From: Candidatus Methylomirabilota bacterium
Lineage (GTDB): Bacteria; Methylomirabilota; Methylomirabilia; Methylomirabilales; JACPAU01
NCBI GenBank assembly: GCA_023249205.1
Contig: JAHFDC010000033.1
Coordinates: 1 to 7,464 of the forward strand
Length of the DNA: 7,464 nucleotides
Reading direction: 5' to 3'
Position numbers and translations under genes: made by a program. A model generated the notes under the pieces. It was not told where the DNA came from. It ran no database searches and worked only from the letters and a program-made list of their open reading frames with translations. How positions within the stretch are numbered: position 1 is the stretch's first letter; the number at the start of each line of letters is the position of its first letter. Of the stretch, positions 1,812-7,214 are shown piece after piece.

Positions 1812-2579
1812 ATGGACCTGGGGATATCCCTGCTGGGCTTCATCGTTGGCGTGCTCGTCGGCATGACGGGCATCGGGAGCGGGTCGGTCATGACGCCCAT
1901 TCTCATCCTGGCCGGCGTCCGGCCGACGGTGGCGGTCGCCAGCGACCTGGTCTACGCCGCCATTACCAAGGGGGTGGGCGCCGTCCAGCACCTCCGGCAG
2001 GGGACCGTCCACCTCCCCCTCGTGTTTTACCTCAGCCTGGGGAGTGTCCCGGCCGGGCTGTTGGGGGCGAAACTCTTCAGCGAGTTGGAGCGCGGGTTCG
2101 GCCCGGCGCTGGACGCCTGGGTCACGAAGGCGGTGGCGGTGCTCCTGATCCTGCTCGCGGCCCTCACCCTGTTCGACCTGCTGCGGGCGCGGAGTAGCCG
2201 GTCGCAGCGGCCGCCGCTGCCCTGGACCGGAGCGGTGAAGCTCCTCACGGTCCTCGTGGGGGTGGGGATCGGCCTGCTCGTGAGCTTCACCTCCATCGGC
2301 AGCGGCTCCATCGTGGCCGCCCTGCTCCTGTACCTGTACCGGCTTCCCATCAACCAGGTCGTAGGCTCGGACATCGTCCAGGCCGTCTTCCTGGCCGGCG
2401 CAGCCGGGCTGGCCCATGCGGCCGGCGGACGCGTGGACTCCGGGCTGGTGGTCAGCCTGCTCGTCGGCTCCATTCCGGGCGTGCTGGTGGGGAGTGCGCT
2501 CTGCCCCCGAATGCCCGTGCGCGCGCTGCGGGGTGCCGTGGCGATGGCGATCCTGTACGCGGGTGTGCGACTTCTCTAA
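1812..2579 (+). CDS. TauE/SafE family permease (probable sulfite/sulfur anion exporter)
   Basis: A hydrophobic 255-residue membrane protein with about eight predicted transmembrane segments in two homologous halves. Each half opens with the family signature: 'GMTGIGSGSVMTP' near residues 17-29 and 'SFTSIGSGSIVAALLL' near 158-173, the second followed by NQVVGSDIVQA. Other members move sulfite, sulfoacetate or related organosulfur anions across the cytoplasmic membrane, usually outward. Its position between siroheme and APS reductase genes suggests relief of excess sulfite, or possibly sulfate uptake as proposed for some relatives; the sequence does not decide. The start follows the chelatase stop by 30 bases and cysH follows by a short gap, so it is likely in the same operon. 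The ribosome-binding site is weak. Confidence 0.9.
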   Translation: MDLGISLLGFIVGVLVGMTGIGSGSVMTPILILAGVRPTVAVASDLVYAAITKGVGAVQHLRQGTVHLPLVFYLSLGSVPAGLLGAKLFSELERGFGPALDAWVTKAVAVLLILLAALTLFDLLRARSSRSQRPPLPWTGAVKLLTVLVGVGIGLLVSFTSIGSGSIVAALLLYLYRLPINQVVGSDIVQAVFLAGAAGLAHAAGGRVDSGLVVSLLVGSIPGVLVGSALCPRMPVRALRGAVAMAILYAGVRLL

Positions 2580-2597: not shown

Positions 2598-3401
2598 ATG
2601 ACGGAGACTGCGGAGGGCAAGGGGGGGGAGGGGCGGAGCGTGGGAGCGCCCGGAGGGACGGCGAGGAGACTGCCAGGGGAAGCCGGGAGTCTGCAGGAGT
2701 GGCTGGAGGCGGATCGCGGCGACCGCCCCGCTGAGGAGGTCCTCGGCTGGGCCATCCAAGCCTTCCGGCCCCGGATCGCCCTGGCTTCCAGTTTTGGGGT
2801 GGAGGACGTGGTCCTCATTGACATGTGGTCGCGGAGGCAGGGCGACGTTCGGGTCTTCAGCCTGGACACGGGGCGCCTCCCGGAGGAGACCTACGAGGTG
2901 ATGGACCGGATCCGCGAACGGTACGGGATCGCCATCGCGACCTATTTCCCGGAGACGGCGGCGGTGGAGGCGCTGGAGCGGGAGCGGGGCTTCTATTCGT
3001 TCCGCCGGAGCGTGGAGGAGCGGAAGCACTGCTGCGGCATCCGGAAGGTGGTGCCGCTCGGCCGCGCCCTGGCCGGCCTGGACGCCTGGGTGACGGGGCT
3101 CCGCCGCGAGCAGGCCGAGACGCGCTCGGCCCTGACGCAGGTGGAGCGGGACCCGGCCCACGGGGGGATGATCAAGGTGAACCCCCTGGCTGACTGGAGC
3201 ACCGAGCAGGTCTGGCAGTATGTCCGGGCGCACGATGTCCCGTACAACCGCCTCCACGATCGCGGATACCCCAGCATCGGCTGCGCCCCGTGCACGCGCG
3301 CCATCCTGCCCGGGGAGGACCTTCGCGCGGGGCGGTGGTGGTGGGAGCGTCCGCAGACGAAGGAGTGCGGCCTCCACCTCACCCCCCGGGAGGGCGCATA
3401 G
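2598..3401 (+). CDS. cysH: assimilatory adenylyl-sulfate (APS) reductase, 4Fe-4S type
   Basis: Reduces APS to sulfite and AMP with thioredoxin or a similar donor, in the cytoplasm. The PP-loop nucleotide-binding motif is SSFGVEDVVL (residues 64-73), followed by SLDTGRLPEETY (88-99). The cysteine pairs KHCCGIRK (Cys145, Cys146) and SIGCAPCTR (Cys229, Cys232) are the iron-sulfur ligands that mark APS reductases and separate them from cluster-less PAPS reductases. The catalytic KECGLH (Cys257) is near the C-terminus, as expected. ATG 2598 has GGGAGG 7 bases upstream; GTG 2583 in the same frame overlaps that site and is less likely. The first 30 residues are Gly/Glu-rich and not conserved. One base separates its stop from the sat start, and no APS kinase is present here, which supports APS as the direct substrate. 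Confidence 0.95.
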   Translation: MTETAEGKGGEGRSVGAPGGTARRLPGEAGSLQEWLEADRGDRPAEEVLGWAIQAFRPRIALASSFGVEDVVLIDMWSRRQGDVRVFSLDTGRLPEETYEVMDRIRERYGIAIATYFPETAAVEALERERGFYSFRRSVEERKHCCGIRKVVPLGRALAGLDAWVTGLRREQAETRSALTQVERDPAHGGMIKVNPLADWSTEQVWQYVRAHDVPYNRLHDRGYPSIGCAPCTRAILPGEDLRAGRWWWERPQTKECGLHLTPREGA

Positions 3402-3402
3402 G

Positions 3403-4581
3403 ATGAGCGGGCCGGTCGCGCCTGACGGGGGGAATTTAGTGAACGGGGTGGTGCCGCTCGAGGCGAGGGCGTCGCTCCGGCAGCGCGCCGGCCGGCTGCC
3501 GGGGCTCCCGCTGGATGCGCGCAGCCGCGCCGACCTTCTCCTGCTGGCGACCGGCGCGTACAGTCCGCTCTCGGGGTTCATGGGGGAGGCAGATTACCGC
3601 CGCGTCGTGACCGAGATGCGCCTGGCGAGCGGCCATCCCTGGTCCCTGCCCATCACGCTCTCCGTGAACGGGGAGCAGGGGAGCGCGCTTCGGGCGGGCA
3701 GGGAGGTGGCGCTTCCCGGGGAGGGCGGGGACCCTCTGGGGATCCTGGAGGTGGCGGAGGTCTACCCGTACGATCGGGAGGAGGAGGCGCGGGAGGTCTT
3801 CCGGACCGCCGACCCGGCCCATCCGGGCGTGGCTGCCCTGTACCGCCAGGGGGAATGGCTCGTGGGCGGTCGGGTCACCCTTCTGGATGATCCCTGCGAC
3901 CCGCCCGGCCCTTTCCTCCGCTACCCGGCGGAAACGCGCCGGGCGATCCAGGAGCGGGGATGGCAGACGGTCGTGGGGTTCCAGACCCGCAACCCCGTCC
4001 ACCGCGCCCACGAGTATCTCCAGAAGTGCGCCCTCGAGATGGTGGATGGTCTCCTGCTGCACCCGCTGGTCGGCGAGACGAAGGAGGATGACATCCCCGC
4101 GCCGGTGCGGCTCGCCTGCTACCAGGTCCTCCTGGAGGGGTATTACCCCAAGGACCGGGTCCTGCTGGGACTGTTGCCGGCAGCCATGCGGTACGCGGGG
4201 CCCCGGGAGGCCGTCTTTCACGCGCTCGTGCGCAAGAACTATGGCTGCACCCATTTCATCGTGGGGCGGGACCACGCCGGGGTCGGGAACTACTACGGAA
4301 GCTACGACGCCCATCATATCTTTGCGGCCTTCGGGCCGGGCGAGATGGGCATCATCCCGATCTTCTTCGAGCATGCCTTCTACTGCCGGCGGTGTGGCGG
4401 CATGGCGACGGCGAAGACCTGCCCGCACGGGCAGGCGGAGCACGTCGCCCTCTCCGGGACCCGGGTTCGGGAGATGCTCGCCCGCGTCGAACTGCCCCCG
4501 CCGGAGTACACCCGCCCCGAGGTTGCGCAGGTGCTCATCCAGTGGGCGAGCGAGGAGGGCTACCAGCGGTACGCGATCTAA
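3403..4581 (+). CDS. sat: ATP sulfurylase (sulfate adenylyltransferase)
   Basis: Forms APS and pyrophosphate from ATP and sulfate, the entry step of sulfate assimilation. The 392 residues match the homo-oligomeric Sat family. It has an N-terminal PUA-like part that starts with DGGNLVNGVV (residues 8-17) and contains LSGFMGEADY (56-65). The catalytic core has QTRNPVHRAHE (194-204), HPLVGETKEDDIP (220-232) and GRDHAGVGNYYG (288-299). A metal-site-like CRRCGG...CPHG lies at 328-343 and LSGTRVREML at 350-359. ATG 3403 has GGGAGGG about 9 bases upstream and lies 1 base after the cysH stop; the family-typical LVN opening supports this start. There is no fused APS kinase domain. The stop codon is created at the left edge of the inserted element described at 4581-4778, and the C-terminal residues appear intact. 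Confidence 0.97.
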   Translation: MSGPVAPDGGNLVNGVVPLEARASLRQRAGRLPGLPLDARSRADLLLLATGAYSPLSGFMGEADYRRVVTEMRLASGHPWSLPITLSVNGEQGSALRAGREVALPGEGGDPLGILEVAEVYPYDREEEAREVFRTADPAHPGVAALYRQGEWLVGGRVTLLDDPCDPPGPFLRYPAETRRAIQERGWQTVVGFQTRNPVHRAHEYLQKCALEMVDGLLLHPLVGETKEDDIPAPVRLACYQVLLEGYYPKDRVLLGLLPAAMRYAGPREAVFHALVRKNYGCTHFIVGRDHAGVGNYYGSYDAHHIFAAFGPGEMGIIPIFFEHAFYCRRCGGMATAKTCPHGQAEHVALSGTRVREMLARVELPPPEYTRPEVAQVLIQWASEEGYQRYAI

Positions 4582-4590
4582 TACAAACGA
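4577..4590 (+). repeat. left terminal inverted repeat, 14 bp
   Basis: TCTAATACAAACGA at the end of sat is an exact reverse complement of 4769-4782. It overlaps the last sat codons and the TAA stop. It is AT-rich compared with its surroundings, and the match is too long and exact to expect by chance at this spacing. Confidence 0.9.
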
Positions 4591-4778
4591 GATACATTGG
4601 GTGACAATAAGGTCCGGGTGGCGCCGGATGCCGCCCGACGGCCCCCGTAGCGGAGGGGGGTCCCATCGGCTCGTGGCCGATGGGGGGAACCACGGGAGGG
4701 TTCCCCAGAGGGCCCGGGGGCCGGGGCGGCGCCGGCGACAGGACCCGGACTTTCTGACTTCGATTCTGTCGTTTGTAT
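4581..4778. mobile_element. putative MITE, IS630/Tc1-mariner-like, about 198 bp
   Basis: Seen directly: the ends ATACAAACGA and TCGTTTGTAT are perfect inverted repeats, each flanked outside by TA (4579-4580 and 4779-4780). A second nested inverted pair, GTCCGGGT (4612-4619) and ACCCGGAC (4743-4750), sits at similar distances from each end. The interior has strong hairpins, including 4662-4670 with 4676-4684 (9 bp, 5-base loop) and 4684-4691 with 4699-4706 (8 bp). No credible coding frame lies inside. Removing the element with one TA leaves TCTAGA. IS630 is known to insert at CTAG and duplicate TA, so the junction fits that family. It lies between sat and the promoter of the next gene. No transposase is present, so movement would need one elsewhere. 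The alternative is a structured intergenic RNA or a bidirectional attenuator. Confidence 0.65.
4662..4706 (+). other. tandem perfect hairpins inside the element
   Basis: Two hairpins lie back to back. CCCATCGGC (4662-4670) pairs with GCCGATGGG (4676-4684), and GGGGAACC (4684-4691) pairs with GGTTCCCC (4699-4706); they share one base. There is no T-run after them, so they are not a classical intrinsic terminator, though they may stabilise the 3' end of sat mRNA or slow read-through. Confidence 0.6.
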
Positions 4779-4782
4779 TAGA
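4769..4782 (-). repeat. right terminal inverted repeat, 14 bp
   Basis: TCGTTTGTATTAGA is the exact reverse complement of the left arm at 4577-4590. The outermost bases (GA here, TC on the left) can be explained by a palindromic TCTAGA target rather than by the element itself. Confidence 0.9.
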
Positions 4783-4880: not shown

Positions 4881-5120
4881 ATGGCCAAGCGGCGGGTGCA
4901 TCTCACCTTCCCCGGGAAGTTGGCCGATGAGCCTCTCCTCTGGCAACTCAGCCAGAAGTTTGAGATCATCTTCAACATCCGCCAGGCCGACTACACCGAG
5001 GGCCTCGGCTGGATGATGACCGAACTCGAGGGGAGCACGGCCAACCTGGAAGCGGCGCTGCGCTGGCTGGAGGGGCAGGGCGTGCTCGTGGCCCCCATCG
5101 AGCAGGACGTGGTCCACTGA
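4881..5120 (+). CDS. NIL domain protein (first copy)
   Basis: A 79-residue stand-alone NIL domain, the ferredoxin-like fold named after a motif at the C-terminus of the methionine ABC transporter ATPase MetN, where it senses methionine. Family features are KRRVHLTFP at the start, EPLLWQLSQKFEIIFNIRQADYTE in the middle and a closing LRWLEGQGVLV strand. Related small NIL proteins, some fused to ferredoxin, occur in homocysteine synthesis loci of archaea and anaerobes, which supports a role in methionine or sulfur metabolism. The exact activity is unknown. ATG 4881 is preferred because the strong promoter at 4804-4832 places the transcript start near 4839; the Shine-Dalgarno region is only a G-run. 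It is a paralogue of the NIL protein at 5395-5613 but is not under the riboswitch. Confidence 0.88.
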   Translation: MAKRRVHLTFPGKLADEPLLWQLSQKFEIIFNIRQADYTEGLGWMMTELEGSTANLEAALRWLEGQGVLVAPIEQDVVH

Positions 5121-5200: not shown

Positions 5201-5318
5201 CTTCTCATCCAGAGTGGCTGAGGGACTGGCCCTGTGAAGCCACGGCAACGGGCGGCCGCTGTGTGAGCCGCCGACGTGCCAACTCCTGCAGCCGGGGGAC
5301 CGGCTGAGAGATGAGAGG
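5201..5318 (+). ncRNA. SAM-I riboswitch (S-box)
   Basis: The aptamer follows the S-box consensus closely. P1 is 5201-5209 with 5310-5318. AGAG then leads to P2, GTGGC (5214-5218) with GCCAC (5239-5243), which contains the GAGGGACTGGCCCTGTGAAG core. The conserved GGCAAC follows. P3 is GGCGGC (5251-5256) with GCCGCC (5267-5272), then GTGCCAACTCC. P4 is CAGCCGG (5289-5295) with CCGGCTG (5300-5306). It binds S-adenosylmethionine and, with the terminator at 5347-5383, should switch off the downstream operon when SAM is abundant. This ties the NIL, threonine synthase-like and sulfur carrier genes to methionine supply. Confidence 0.97.
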
Positions 5319-5346
5319 GGGACGCGCTTGCGGCCAGCGTGCTGAG

Positions 5347-5383
5347 CCCCTTCTCATAGCGATGGGAAGGGGTTTTGGTTTTT
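5347..5383 (+). terminator. riboswitch-controlled intrinsic terminator
   Basis: CCCCTTCTCAT (5347-5357) pairs with ATGGGAAGGGG (5362-5372) as an 11-bp stem with one G-U pair and an AGCG loop, followed by TTTTGGTTTTT (5373-5383). The competing antiterminator pairs the 3' side of P1 (ATGAGAGGGG, 5311-5320) with 5347-5357, with one bulged base. SAM binding holds P1 closed, frees the terminator and stops transcription; without SAM the antiterminator forms. Confidence 0.9.
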
Positions 5384-5394
5384 CAGGAGGGAGG

Positions 5395-5613
5395 ATGCCC
5401 ACGCGACGGGTGACGCTCATCTTCCCCCAGACGCTGGTGACGGAGCCGGTGATCTGGCGGGTGTCGAAGGAGTTCGGCCTGGTGCCGAACATCCGGAAGG
5501 CCAGGATCACGGAAGAGGCGGGGGAGGTGGTCTTGGACTTCACCGGGACCGCTGAGGCCCTGGACCGCGGGATGGCCTACCTCCGGTCGGTGGGGATCCG
5601 GGTCACGTCCTGA
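5395..5613 (+). CDS. NIL domain protein (second copy, SAM-regulated)
   Basis: A 72-residue stand-alone NIL domain. It shares with the first copy the pattern RRV.L.FP..L..EP..W..S..F....NIR.A..TE..G and the ending L...G..V, so the two are paralogues, but much of the rest differs. ATG 5395 has AGGAGGG just upstream, immediately after the riboswitch terminator's T-run. In-frame codons before it belong to the terminator and riboswitch and are not coding. It is the first gene of the SAM-controlled operon, 37 bases ahead of the threonine synthase-like gene. A role in homocysteine or methionine synthesis, as a methionine-sensing or sulfur-transfer partner, is inferred from the NIL family and the riboswitch. 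No catalytic residues are visible and it has no cysteine. Confidence 0.92.
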   Translation: MPTRRVTLIFPQTLVTEPVIWRVSKEFGLVPNIRKARITEEAGEVVLDFTGTAEALDRGMAYLRSVGIRVTS

Positions 5614-5650
5614 GCGCGGGCCTCGGCGAGCGGGGTCCCAGGAGGAACGG

Positions 5651-6901
5651 ATGCCGAAGGTCAAGGGGTTGAAGTGTCGGGAGTGCCACCGGGCCTATCC
5701 GGCGAAGCCCCTCCACGTCTGCGAATTCTGCTTCGGGCCGCTCGAGGTGGACTACGACTACGCGGCGCTGCGGCAGGTGGCGACCCGCCGGGCGATCGAG
5801 GCCGGTCCTCCCAGCATTTGGCGTTACCGGGCCCTCCTCCCGGTGGATGGGGAGGCCGCGGTCGGGCACGCCTGCGGCATGACCCCCCTGGTGCGCGCGA
5901 AGAACCTTGGGGCCGCCCTCGGGGTGCAGGAGTGCTACCTGAAGAACGACGCCGTCTGCCATCCGACTCTCTCCTTCAAGGACCGGGTGGTGGCGGTGGC
6001 CGTGACCAGGGCGCTGGAGTTCGGCTTCTCGGTGGTGGCCTGCGCTTCGACCGGCAACCTGGCCAACTCGGTGGCGGCGCACGCCGCCGAGGCGTCCCTG
6101 AAGAGCGTCATCTTCGTCCCGGCCGACCTGGAGCAGACGAAGATCGTCGGGACCCAGATCTACCGCCCGACCCTCGTGGCGGTGGACGGTAACTACGACG
6201 AGGTGAACCGCCTCTGCAGCGAGGTGGCGGACAAGTATGGCTGGGCTTTCGTGAACATCAACATCCGGCCCTACTACGCGGAGGGCTCCAAGACCTTTGG
6301 CTTCGAGATCGCGGAGCAACTCGGCTGGCGGGCGCCCCGGCACATCGTGGTGCCGGCCGCGGGGGGCTCCCTGGTGACCAAGATCTGGAAGGGACTGAAG
6401 GAGCTCCACGCCCTGGACCTGATTCCGGAGGTCCGCACCCGGATGTACGTGGCGCAGGCGGCCGGGTGCGGGCCGATCGTGACCGCCATCAAGGCCGACT
6501 CGGAGACCATCCGACCGGTCAAGCCGAGGACCATCGCCAAGTCGCTCGCCATCGGCAACCCGGCGGACGGCTACTACGCCGTTAAGGCGGTCAAAGAGAG
6601 CGGAGGGAGCGGGGAGCACGCCACCGACGAGGAGATCCTGGACGCGATCCAGCTCCTGGCGGCCACCGAGGGGATCTTCACCGAGACGGCAGGAGGCGTC
6701 ACCGTGGCGGCGGCCCGGACCCTCATCGCCCGAGGGGTGATCCCGCGGGACGAGAGCCTGGTGATCTCGATCACCGGTAACGGCCTGAAGACGCAGGAGG
6801 CGCTCGCCGGGCGGCTGCCAGCCGGGCTGACGATCAAACCGACCCTGAAGGCCTTCGACGAGGCGCTGGCCGCCCACGAGGCGGCGACGGGGGGCGCCTG
6901 A
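5651..6901 (+). CDS. thrC: threonine synthase family PLP enzyme with N-terminal zinc ribbon
   Basis: A fold-type II PLP enzyme of 416 residues. Residues 9-27 form a CxxC...CxxC zinc ribbon (Cys9, Cys12, Cys24, Cys27), as in some archaeal and bacterial threonine synthases. The PLP lysine is Lys110 in PTLSFKDRV. STGN (133-136), PAAGGS (235-240) and ITGNGLK (374-380) are further family motifs. By family it should convert O-phosphohomoserine to threonine. However, it is the second gene of a SAM-riboswitch operon and is followed by a CysO-like sulfur carrier. A beta/gamma-replacement role that uses the same substrate with a protein thiocarboxylate to give homocysteine is therefore a serious alternative, though not shown by the sequence. 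ATG 5651 has AGGAGG 5 bases upstream. The family assignment is firm; the substrate is not. Confidence 0.92.
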   Translation: MPKVKGLKCRECHRAYPAKPLHVCEFCFGPLEVDYDYAALRQVATRRAIEAGPPSIWRYRALLPVDGEAAVGHACGMTPLVRAKNLGAALGVQECYLKNDAVCHPTLSFKDRVVAVAVTRALEFGFSVVACASTGNLANSVAAHAAEASLKSVIFVPADLEQTKIVGTQIYRPTLVAVDGNYDEVNRLCSEVADKYGWAFVNINIRPYYAEGSKTFGFEIAEQLGWRAPRHIVVPAAGGSLVTKIWKGLKELHALDLIPEVRTRMYVAQAAGCGPIVTAIKADSETIRPVKPRTIAKSLAIGNPADGYYAVKAVKESGGSGEHATDEEILDAIQLLAATEGIFTETAGGVTVAAARTLIARGVIPRDESLVISITGNGLKTQEALAGRLPAGLTIKPTLKAFDEALAAHEAATGGA

Positions 6902-6932
6902 GCGGCGCCGGGCCGGGGCAGGAGAGAGCGAG

Positions 6933-7214
6933 ATGAGCGTGCTGGTGCGGATCCCGACCCCCCTGCGGAGCCTCACGCAGGGGCAGGCCGAGGTCAAGGT
7001 CGAGGGCGGCTCCATCGGTGAACTGATCGAGCGGCTGGACGCGAAGTACGCCGGGCTGAAGGACCGCCTCTGCGAGGGGGACGGGAAGATCCGGCGCTTC
7101 ATCAATATCTACGTCAACGAGGAAGACATCCGCTTCCTCCAGGGCCCCGCGACCCCCCTGAAGACGGGGGATGCGGTCTCCATCGTCCCGGCGATCGCGG
7201 GCGGCAGGCCGTAG
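6933..7214 (+). CDS. MoaD/ThiS family sulfur carrier protein, CysO-like
   Basis: A 93-residue beta-grasp (ubiquitin-like) protein. The N-terminal VRIPTPLRSLTQGQ and the later RRFINIYVNEEDIRFLQG and VSIVPAIAGG resemble the mycobacterial cysteine-synthesis carrier CysO more than MoaD or ThiS as I remember them. Such carriers are adenylated and thiocarboxylated at a terminal Gly-Gly and then donate sulfur to a PLP enzyme. Here Gly90-Gly91 is followed by Arg-Pro, so a peptidase such as a JAMM/Mec+-type enzyme would have to expose the diglycine. Neither that peptidase nor an E1-like activator is in the window. ATG 6933 has AGGAGAG 6 bases upstream, 31 bases after the thrC-like stop, consistent with one operon under SAM control. 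Its likely partner is that PLP enzyme. Confidence 0.9.
   Translation: MSVLVRIPTPLRSLTQGQAEVKVEGGSIGELIERLDAKYAGLKDRLCEGDGKIRRFINIYVNEEDIRFLQGPATPLKTGDAVSIVPAIAGGRP

Follow-up and report, generated by a model that had tools for sequence, protein, structure and literature searches.

Why should a gene resembling threonine synthase stand behind a riboswitch for S-adenosylmethionine (SAM)? The locus that raises this question lies in the 3′ part of a 7,464-nt contig (JAHFDC010000033.1, assembly GCA_023249205.1; its full length is “the window” below) from a Candidatus Methylomirabilota bacterium; it is contig C119 of genome G000, which amounts to 1.33 Mb and is 64% complete. In order, the window encodes CobA, CbiX, a TauE exporter, CysH, Sat, a first NIL-domain protein (NIL1), a SAM-I riboswitch, a second NIL-domain protein (NIL2), a threonine-synthase-like enzyme dependent on pyridoxal phosphate (PLP), and a ThiS-type protein (Table 1). 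The answer that best fits the comparisons described here is that this relative of threonine synthase probably makes homocysteine, replacing the phosphate of O-phosphohomoserine with sulfur held as a thiocarboxylate on the neighboring ThiS-type protein, much as an earlier note on this DNA had proposed. A pathway role in homocysteine synthesis is well supported, and the carrier thiocarboxylate is the likely sulfur donor, judging from gene content; O-phosphohomoserine is a likely substrate but the least secure part, because of a changed pocket and because TIGR02535 finds no homoserine kinase in a complete relative (G026, below).

Predicted riboswitch control and relation to threonine synthase

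Searched with Rfam at the gathering threshold, the window yields a single match, the SAM-I aptamer, which is complete (E 4.4e-22; 93.5 bits, gathering score 44.4; model positions 1–108 of 108). By RNA fold prediction it is followed by an intrinsic terminator, a stem running into TTTTGGTTTTT, and by an antiterminator that competes with it (duplex energy −20.5 kcal/mol, from the fold of 5300–5357). One strand of this antiterminator is the 3′ side of helix P1 in the aptamer, so transcripts are expected to end before NIL2 at high SAM and to continue into the operon when SAM is low. NIL2, the enzyme, and the carrier gene follow on the same strand with gaps of 37 and 31 bases, bearing out the arrangement first read from the letters: a SAM-I riboswitch with terminator and antiterminator ahead of tightly spaced genes for a NIL protein, a zinc-ribbon threonine synthase homologue, and a ThiS carrier.

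Among the 41 Methylomirabilota genomes searched, 28 contain SAM-I. It lies just upstream of the operon in 25 of the 33 with a full-length orthologue of the enzyme, and in 22 of those 25 it is the genome's sole SAM-I match; a terminator is predicted in 24 of 25 related leaders (none in L003). In 27 of 30 related loci (L001–L028 except L004), NIL1, NIL2, the ThrC-like gene, and ThiS occur together; L004 starts after NIL1, L029 has the ThrC-like gene, ThiS, and NIL, and L030 the ThrC-like gene alone. The arrangement is conserved among these relatives. The riboswitch is, however, a lineage-specific clue and no constant of the system: it was not found in L006, L009, L015, L029, L030, L074, L077, L082, L086, L096, or L113. 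In two genomes without the enzyme (G016 and G025), SAM-I precedes a member of PF01053, the family of MetB, MetY, MetZ, and MetC, and G019 has both arrangements.

One alternative is that the gene encodes an ordinary or redundant threonine synthase. Its product passes the threonine synthase equivalog model TIGR00260 (273 bits, cut-off 167), the closest solved structures are threonine synthases, and where a functional name is given among the best matches listed it is threonine synthase (of the best 120 protein matches, those with named sources are from candidate division NC10, Methylomirabilis, or Methylomirabilales, with one labeled Acidoferrum). A plant threonine synthase moreover binds SAM, according to the title of structure 2c2b, so the SAM link alone is not decisive. 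The enzyme shares the threonine synthase fold and, over the catalytic part, has 36–41% identity with the short ThrC genes of most relatives, but it stands in a separate clade, has a zinc ribbon that the true ThrC of these genomes lacks, carries fixed changes in active-site loops, and differs from ThrC in regulation and gene context. In a clade test, 28 family rows fall on one side of a 100/100 branch and 13 true ThrC rows fall elsewhere, the enzyme thus lying outside the true ThrC clade with 1uim; positions fixed within the enzyme group and within those 13 rows differ between them. The positions of T88, N157, and R160 (T. thermophilus ThrC numbering) are replaced in all 84 enzyme rows, and that of S155 is N in 83 of 84; all four are taken here to have roles in ThrC, S155 and R160 presumably as ligands of the substrate phosphate.

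A complete relative, G026, belongs to the same taxonomic order and is available as a single contig of 2,752,854 bases (rated 100% complete, 1% contamination). In it, a separate true ThrC adjoins homoserine dehydrogenase (Hom), and the window's own genome, at 64% completeness, has further ThrC-family matches; a second thrC, which the earlier note had proposed to look for, is thus present in G026. On these sequence grounds (its own clade, fixed residue differences, and the separate ThrC of G026) the enzyme appears not to be the genome's threonine synthase. Together with the SAM riboswitch, the sulfur-transfer neighbors, and the occurrence of both enzymes in one cluster at L082, L091, and L113 (below), this led to rejection of the ordinary threonine synthase as a candidate, and such a role, redundant or not, seems very improbable.

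G026 also encodes a third ThrC-family protein (L123:8892-10745, minus strand; 618 amino acids) with a C-terminal LeuA_dimer allosteric domain, which perhaps senses leucine or isoleucine; similar open frames of 620–640 amino acids recur among relatives.

Distribution against known homocysteine routes

The operon enzyme belongs to PF00291, not PF01053, and its distribution can be compared with those of PF01053 and of HcyBio (DUF39, PF01837). The curated PF01053 cut-off of 27 bits was not used, since partial matches of 28–41 bits exceed it in many genomes (35 of the 41 Methylomirabilota genomes, and 37 of 43 named genomes from other groups, are over it); the family was counted instead at more than 300 bits in the 41 genomes, at least 240 bits in the 43, and E 1e-40 in a draw of 117 described below. 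Full-length PF01053 is then found in 13 of the 41 (next best score, 41 bits) and in all 14 controls. There is none in G026 (partial match, 32 bits), nor in G000 as far as its 64% completeness goes. HcyBio was found in one of the 41 (G025), and neither in G026 nor in the 64%-complete G000; a DUF39 route involving NIL was rejected on this basis.

MetX was scanned for in 80 genomes, comprising 37 of the 41 (G001, G007, G022, and G033 were left out) and the 43 named ones. The model cut-off of 500 bits is passed by none of them and by none of the 14 controls, and raw scores were read instead: above 450 bits in six genomes, 235–280 in seven, 147 in one, and below 150 in 67. MetX was not found in G026 (best score, 28 bits). 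With no full-length PF01053, no HcyBio, and no MetX, the operon enzyme would be the sole homocysteine route in G026 among those searched, which is how the proposed search for metY, metZ, and metB turned out. Taken with the separate ThrC, this means that the refuting condition set in the earlier note does not refute its reading. Over the Methylomirabilota set, the enzyme occurs without PF01053 in 24 genomes and PF01053 without the enzyme in 3.

MetX-like genes scoring 268–280 bits were seen in G009, G012, G015, G018, and G003, all lacking full-length PF01053; they may serve serine rather than homoserine acylation.

The 43 named genomes are those with loci outside NC10 and Rokubacteria; all carry the enzyme, and their completeness is not given. 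PF01053 is present in 7 of them, with fragments in G054, and HcyBio in 6, leaving 32 with neither (G054 being counted as having both). A broader view comes from 117 genomes of the phylum to which G053, an Omnitrophota record, belongs, drawn with a completeness of at least 85 requested (G042, G053, G056, and G065 are shared with the 43). The enzyme was found in 29, PF01053 in 53, and HcyBio in 36, with pairwise overlaps of 1, 3, and 2 genomes. Of the 117 genomes, 112 have at least one of the three and 106 have just one, while 20,000 shuffles gave no more than 96 and 77, respectively. Neither known route was found in 25 of 29 enzyme carriers vs. 5 of 88 non-carriers (Fisher p 1.3e-16, a value not corrected for kinship). 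This near-clean partition is the pattern expected of a substitute for both known homocysteine routes, and near-exclusivity with homocysteine enzyme families favors homocysteine over cysteine or threonine as the product; the product named in the earlier note thus gains support from another phylum. PF01053 and DUF39 are themselves nearly mutually exclusive in this draw (53 and 36 genomes, 2 in common).

Sulfur-transfer partners, carrier, and likely substrate

Gene neighborhoods were compared in a wider set, the best 80 of at least 565 confirmed stretches in named genomes, all with at least 63% identity. By record title, these come from NC10, Rokubacteria, Omnitrophota, Saganbacteria, Margulisbacteria, Nitrospirae, Deltaproteobacteria, Planctomycetes, Poribacteria, Caldiserica, and others. 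Neighbors were counted if on the same strand and no more than 8 kb away, although contig ends truncate many of the loci. The counts are ThiS in 76 loci, NIL in 70, ThiF and CysK in 32 each, JAMM and TusA in 28 each, CysH in 18, and Sat in 10, with true ThrC, aspartokinase, and TIGR02535 (a proposed homoserine kinase) in 3 each and Hom in 2. Counts for sulfite reductase were left unused, as one seed carries a TusA domain. Fused proteins near the enzyme join ThiS to ThiF (L078), to NIL (L109), and to CysK (L078). In G026 the cluster reads Rrf2, CysK, ThiS-ThiF, a sulfur transporter, two TusA-like genes, a CysM-like enzyme, JAMM, a TauE-like gene, a protein of the sulfite/nitrite reductase family, a beta-propeller protein, CysH, Sat, a rhodanese (opposite strand), NIL1, the riboswitch, NIL2, the enzyme, and ThiS, where the labels TusA, TauE, CysH, and Sat are by sequence resemblance rather than family scan. 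The thiocarboxylate donor postulated earlier is made likely by these adjoining ThiF, JAMM, and TusA genes and by the ThiS-ThiF fusions. The E1-type activating enzyme and JAMM partners are found in relatives (the G026 cluster, and the loci counted above), not inside the window.

The carrier in the window belongs to the ThiS/MoaD fold family by PF02597 (58.4 bits), in line with the earlier description of it as a CysO-like sulfur carrier. As a correction, its end is GGRP instead of a terminal Gly-Gly; with two residues after the motif, it would need trimming. A Gly-Gly motif is present in 74 of the 76 loci with a ThiS hit: 12 of these carriers end at the motif, 53 have 1–16 extra residues, and 9 extend by 40 or more. 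Among the long-tailed ones, ThiF is fused in L078, L087, and L094 and NIL in L084, L089, L105, L109 (a ThiS-NIL fusion checked with Pfam), and L115, while L051 has a long tail with no assigned domain. The ThiS-NIL run-on proteins are a physical link between carrier and NIL. Trimming would be needed for most carriers, in keeping with the recurrence of JAMM genes; JAMM PF14464 is over its cut-off in 71 of 80 genomes, although 7 of 14 controls have JAMM-family matches above cut-off as well.

Alternatively, a homocysteine synthase of the same fold might take its sulfur from free sulfide or a TusA persulfide, or act on a different activated homoserine (O-acetylhomoserine, for example), while ThiS served some other purpose. 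Most loci have no ThiF or JAMM within 8 kb, and MetX-type genes of 235–484 bits are present in 13 of 80 genomes; in G041 (L074), such a gene lies some 6 kb away from that of the enzyme. ThiS, however, is the most constant partner of the enzyme gene, next to it in 76 of the 80 loci, and ThiS-ThiF fusions adjoin it as well. As for the substrate, O-acetylhomoserine was rejected as a general one because 67 of 80 genomes, G026 among them, have MetX scores under 150 bits. A synthase of this kind is accordingly judged unlikely.

The placement of the enzyme at the O-phosphohomoserine branch point comes from threonine-branch neighbors at three loci. In L082 and L091 (Nitrospirota), the order is Hom, TusA, ThiF, JAMM, enzyme, ThiS, NIL, true ThrC, TIGR02535 (561 bits in L082), aspartokinase; L113 is the same stretch from the enzyme onward, the locus being cut just before it. 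A homologue in Dissulfurispira thermophila, on a 2.4-Mb contig, is 92% identical to the L113 enzyme.

These loci also bear on whether the product might be cysteine, the enzyme then being a thiocarboxylate-dependent, CysM-like synthase acting on O-phosphoserine in a threonine synthase fold, under SAM control within sulfate assimilation. S-box control of cysteine genes occurs in Bacillus, CysH and Sat adjoin the operon, and the ThrC residues taken as phosphate contacts are changed in the enzyme. The best-known carrier system, CysO-CysM-Mec+, has cysteine as its product (PMC3227635). Against this, dedicated cysteine synthases share the cluster in 32 of 80 loci, two being present in G026; the enzyme and the families of homocysteine enzymes are almost mutually exclusive; and threonine-branch genes accompany it in L082, L091, and L113. 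A cysteine synthase was set aside as the less likely reading on the first two of these counts, and with all three considered it is decidedly unlikely. In L078, the enzyme gene adjoins one (6806-7975) for a cysteine synthase that bears a ThiS domain at its N-terminus, suggesting that in these organisms cysteine may also be carrier-made.

Several observations weigh against a thiocarboxylate-dependent homocysteine synthase. No SAM-I lies upstream of 8 of the 33 full-length orthologues, and none was found at six loci from other phyla. PF01053 accompanies the enzyme in ten of the 34 Methylomirabilota genomes that carry it, including all such f7 genomes (five), and four genomes (G001, G007, G033, and G037; 63–93% complete, G037 at 93%) have neither. 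ThiF, JAMM, and TusA are nearby in only about a third of the 80 loci, many of which are cut by contig ends. The replaced S155 and R160 positions make a substrate other than O-phosphohomoserine possible. Finally, no homoserine kinase was found in G026 by TIGR02535, a search that did not extend to ThrB; TIGR02535 is over its cut-off in 34 of 80 genomes, 33 of them among the 43 named.

Proposed mechanism, precedents, and other features of the window

Threonine synthase removes phosphate from O-phosphohomoserine, leaving a PLP-bound vinylglycine intermediate to which water adds. In the route proposed here, a JAMM protease would trim the carrier tail to expose Gly-Gly, and a ThiF/MoeB-type E1 would adenylate the carrier, sulfur from TusA or rhodanese then giving the thiocarboxylate. 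As in the first half of the threonine synthase reaction, the PLP enzyme would eliminate phosphate and leave a vinylglycine-type intermediate; where threonine synthase adds water at the beta carbon, the thiocarboxylate would add at the gamma carbon. The resulting carrier-homocysteine adduct would rearrange to an amide, from which JAMM would free homocysteine, as Mec+ acts on CysO-cysteine. The NIL proteins may have either of two roles. NIL1 shows a faint resemblance to the C-terminal region of the MetN model (28.7 bits, a score well short of the cut-off), and since the MetN C2 domain mediates transinhibition by methionine (PMC10710835), NIL may sense methionine; the ThiS-NIL fusions make docking of the carrier possible as well.

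The nearest precedent is in Mycobacterium, where CysM joins O-phosphoserine-derived aminoacrylate and a carrier thiocarboxylate and Mec+ frees cysteine (PMC3227635). The likenesses are a ThiS-fold carrier, a fold-type II PLP enzyme, an E1, a JAMM protein, and, as predicted here, a phosphate leaving group; the present system differs in a PLP enzyme from the threonine synthase clade, a likely homocysteine product, NIL partners, and a SAM-I riboswitch. Operons of ThiS/MoaD, JAB, E1, and SirA were described by Iyer et al. (2006; PMC1779556), with carrier, JAB, E1, SirA/TusA, and sulfate-assimilation genes together as here; the term threonine synthase does not occur in that paper.

Two other systems have homocysteine as their product. 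In Wolinella, the HcyS-MetY pathway reportedly leads from a carrier thiocarboxylate to homocysteine, the conversion predicted here, but MetY is of PF01053, with an unrelated PLP fold, and PF01053 is absent from G026 and most enzyme-bearing genomes. The route of DUF39 with a NIL-ferredoxin protein resembles the present one in a NIL domain and the likely product; it differs in that G026 has no DUF39, that NIL here lacks the ferredoxin part, and that homoserine, which would be an intermediate here, is not one there (PMC5764234).

Price et al. (2018; PMC5764234) mention a protein thiocarboxylate pathway to homocysteine and state that a further homocysteine pathway remains to be discovered, naming Aquifex aeolicus, Pyrolobus fumarii, and Acidimicrobium ferrooxidans. 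The enzyme family is a concrete candidate for that pathway, known here from genomes other than those three organisms. Among the open-licence papers listed in literature searches (subscription papers and preprints being outside that scope), no title or abstract opening gives a threonine-synthase-like enzyme a role in homocysteine synthesis. On balance, a further route beside PF01053 and DUF39 seems probable, in which a fold-type II PLP enzyme carries out gamma-replacement on O-phosphohomoserine with a protein thiocarboxylate, in several phyla and under a SAM switch in Methylomirabilota. Of 8,000 candidate protein clusters, at least 7,980 and at least 7,995 reach E 1e-120 or better to two family members. 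If the reading is correct, thousands of clusters now named threonine synthase make homocysteine, a homocysteine gap is filled in whole lineages, methionine auxotrophy is predicted too often in groups like Methylomirabilota and Omnitrophota, and the pathways to threonine and methionine part at O-phosphohomoserine via two sister enzymes.

Table 1. Features of the operon and its upstream region, in window coordinates.
Feature	Position	Strand	Basis
SAM-I (S box) riboswitch aptamer	5202..5317	+	RF00162, 93.5 bits, full model 1-108
Predicted antiterminator	5311..5357	+	5311-5321 (3′ strand of aptamer helix P1) pairs with 5347-5357
Predicted intrinsic terminator	5347..5383	+	Stem 5347-5357/5362-5372, U tract 5373-5383; RNA fold
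NIL2, small NIL-domain protein, 72 amino acids	5395..5613	+	PF09383, 54.7 bits (cut-off 24)
Threonine-synthase-like PLP enzyme with zinc ribbon, 416 amino acids, candidate homocysteine synthase	5651..6901	+	PF00291, 220 bits; TIGR00260, 273 bits; own clade
ThiS/MoaD-type carrier, 93 amino acids, C-terminus AIAGGRP	6933..7214	+	PF02597, 58.4 bits (cut-off 22.5)
NIL1, small NIL-domain protein 5′ of riboswitch	4881..5120	+	PF09383, 60.2 bits
ATP sulfurylase (Sat), sulfate assimilation, upstream of operon	3403..4581	+	NF003166, 536 bits
Adenylylsulfate/phosphoadenylylsulfate (APS/PAPS) reductase (CysH)	2598..3401	+	TIGR02055, 271 bits (cut-off 235)
TauE/SafE-family exporter	1812..2579	+	PF01925, 147.8 bits

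Two further features of the window lie outside the operon. A DUF4760-domain protein is encoded at its left edge (2-436). Between Sat and NIL1, and overlapping the sat stop codon, is a 206-bp element (4577-4782) with perfect 14-bp terminal inverted repeats. It folds far better than shuffled sequences (DNA, −70.1 kcal/mol, z −9.2), and its end motif occurs in 0 of 144 other loci compared; it may be a non-autonomous mobile element of small size or else a large hairpin.

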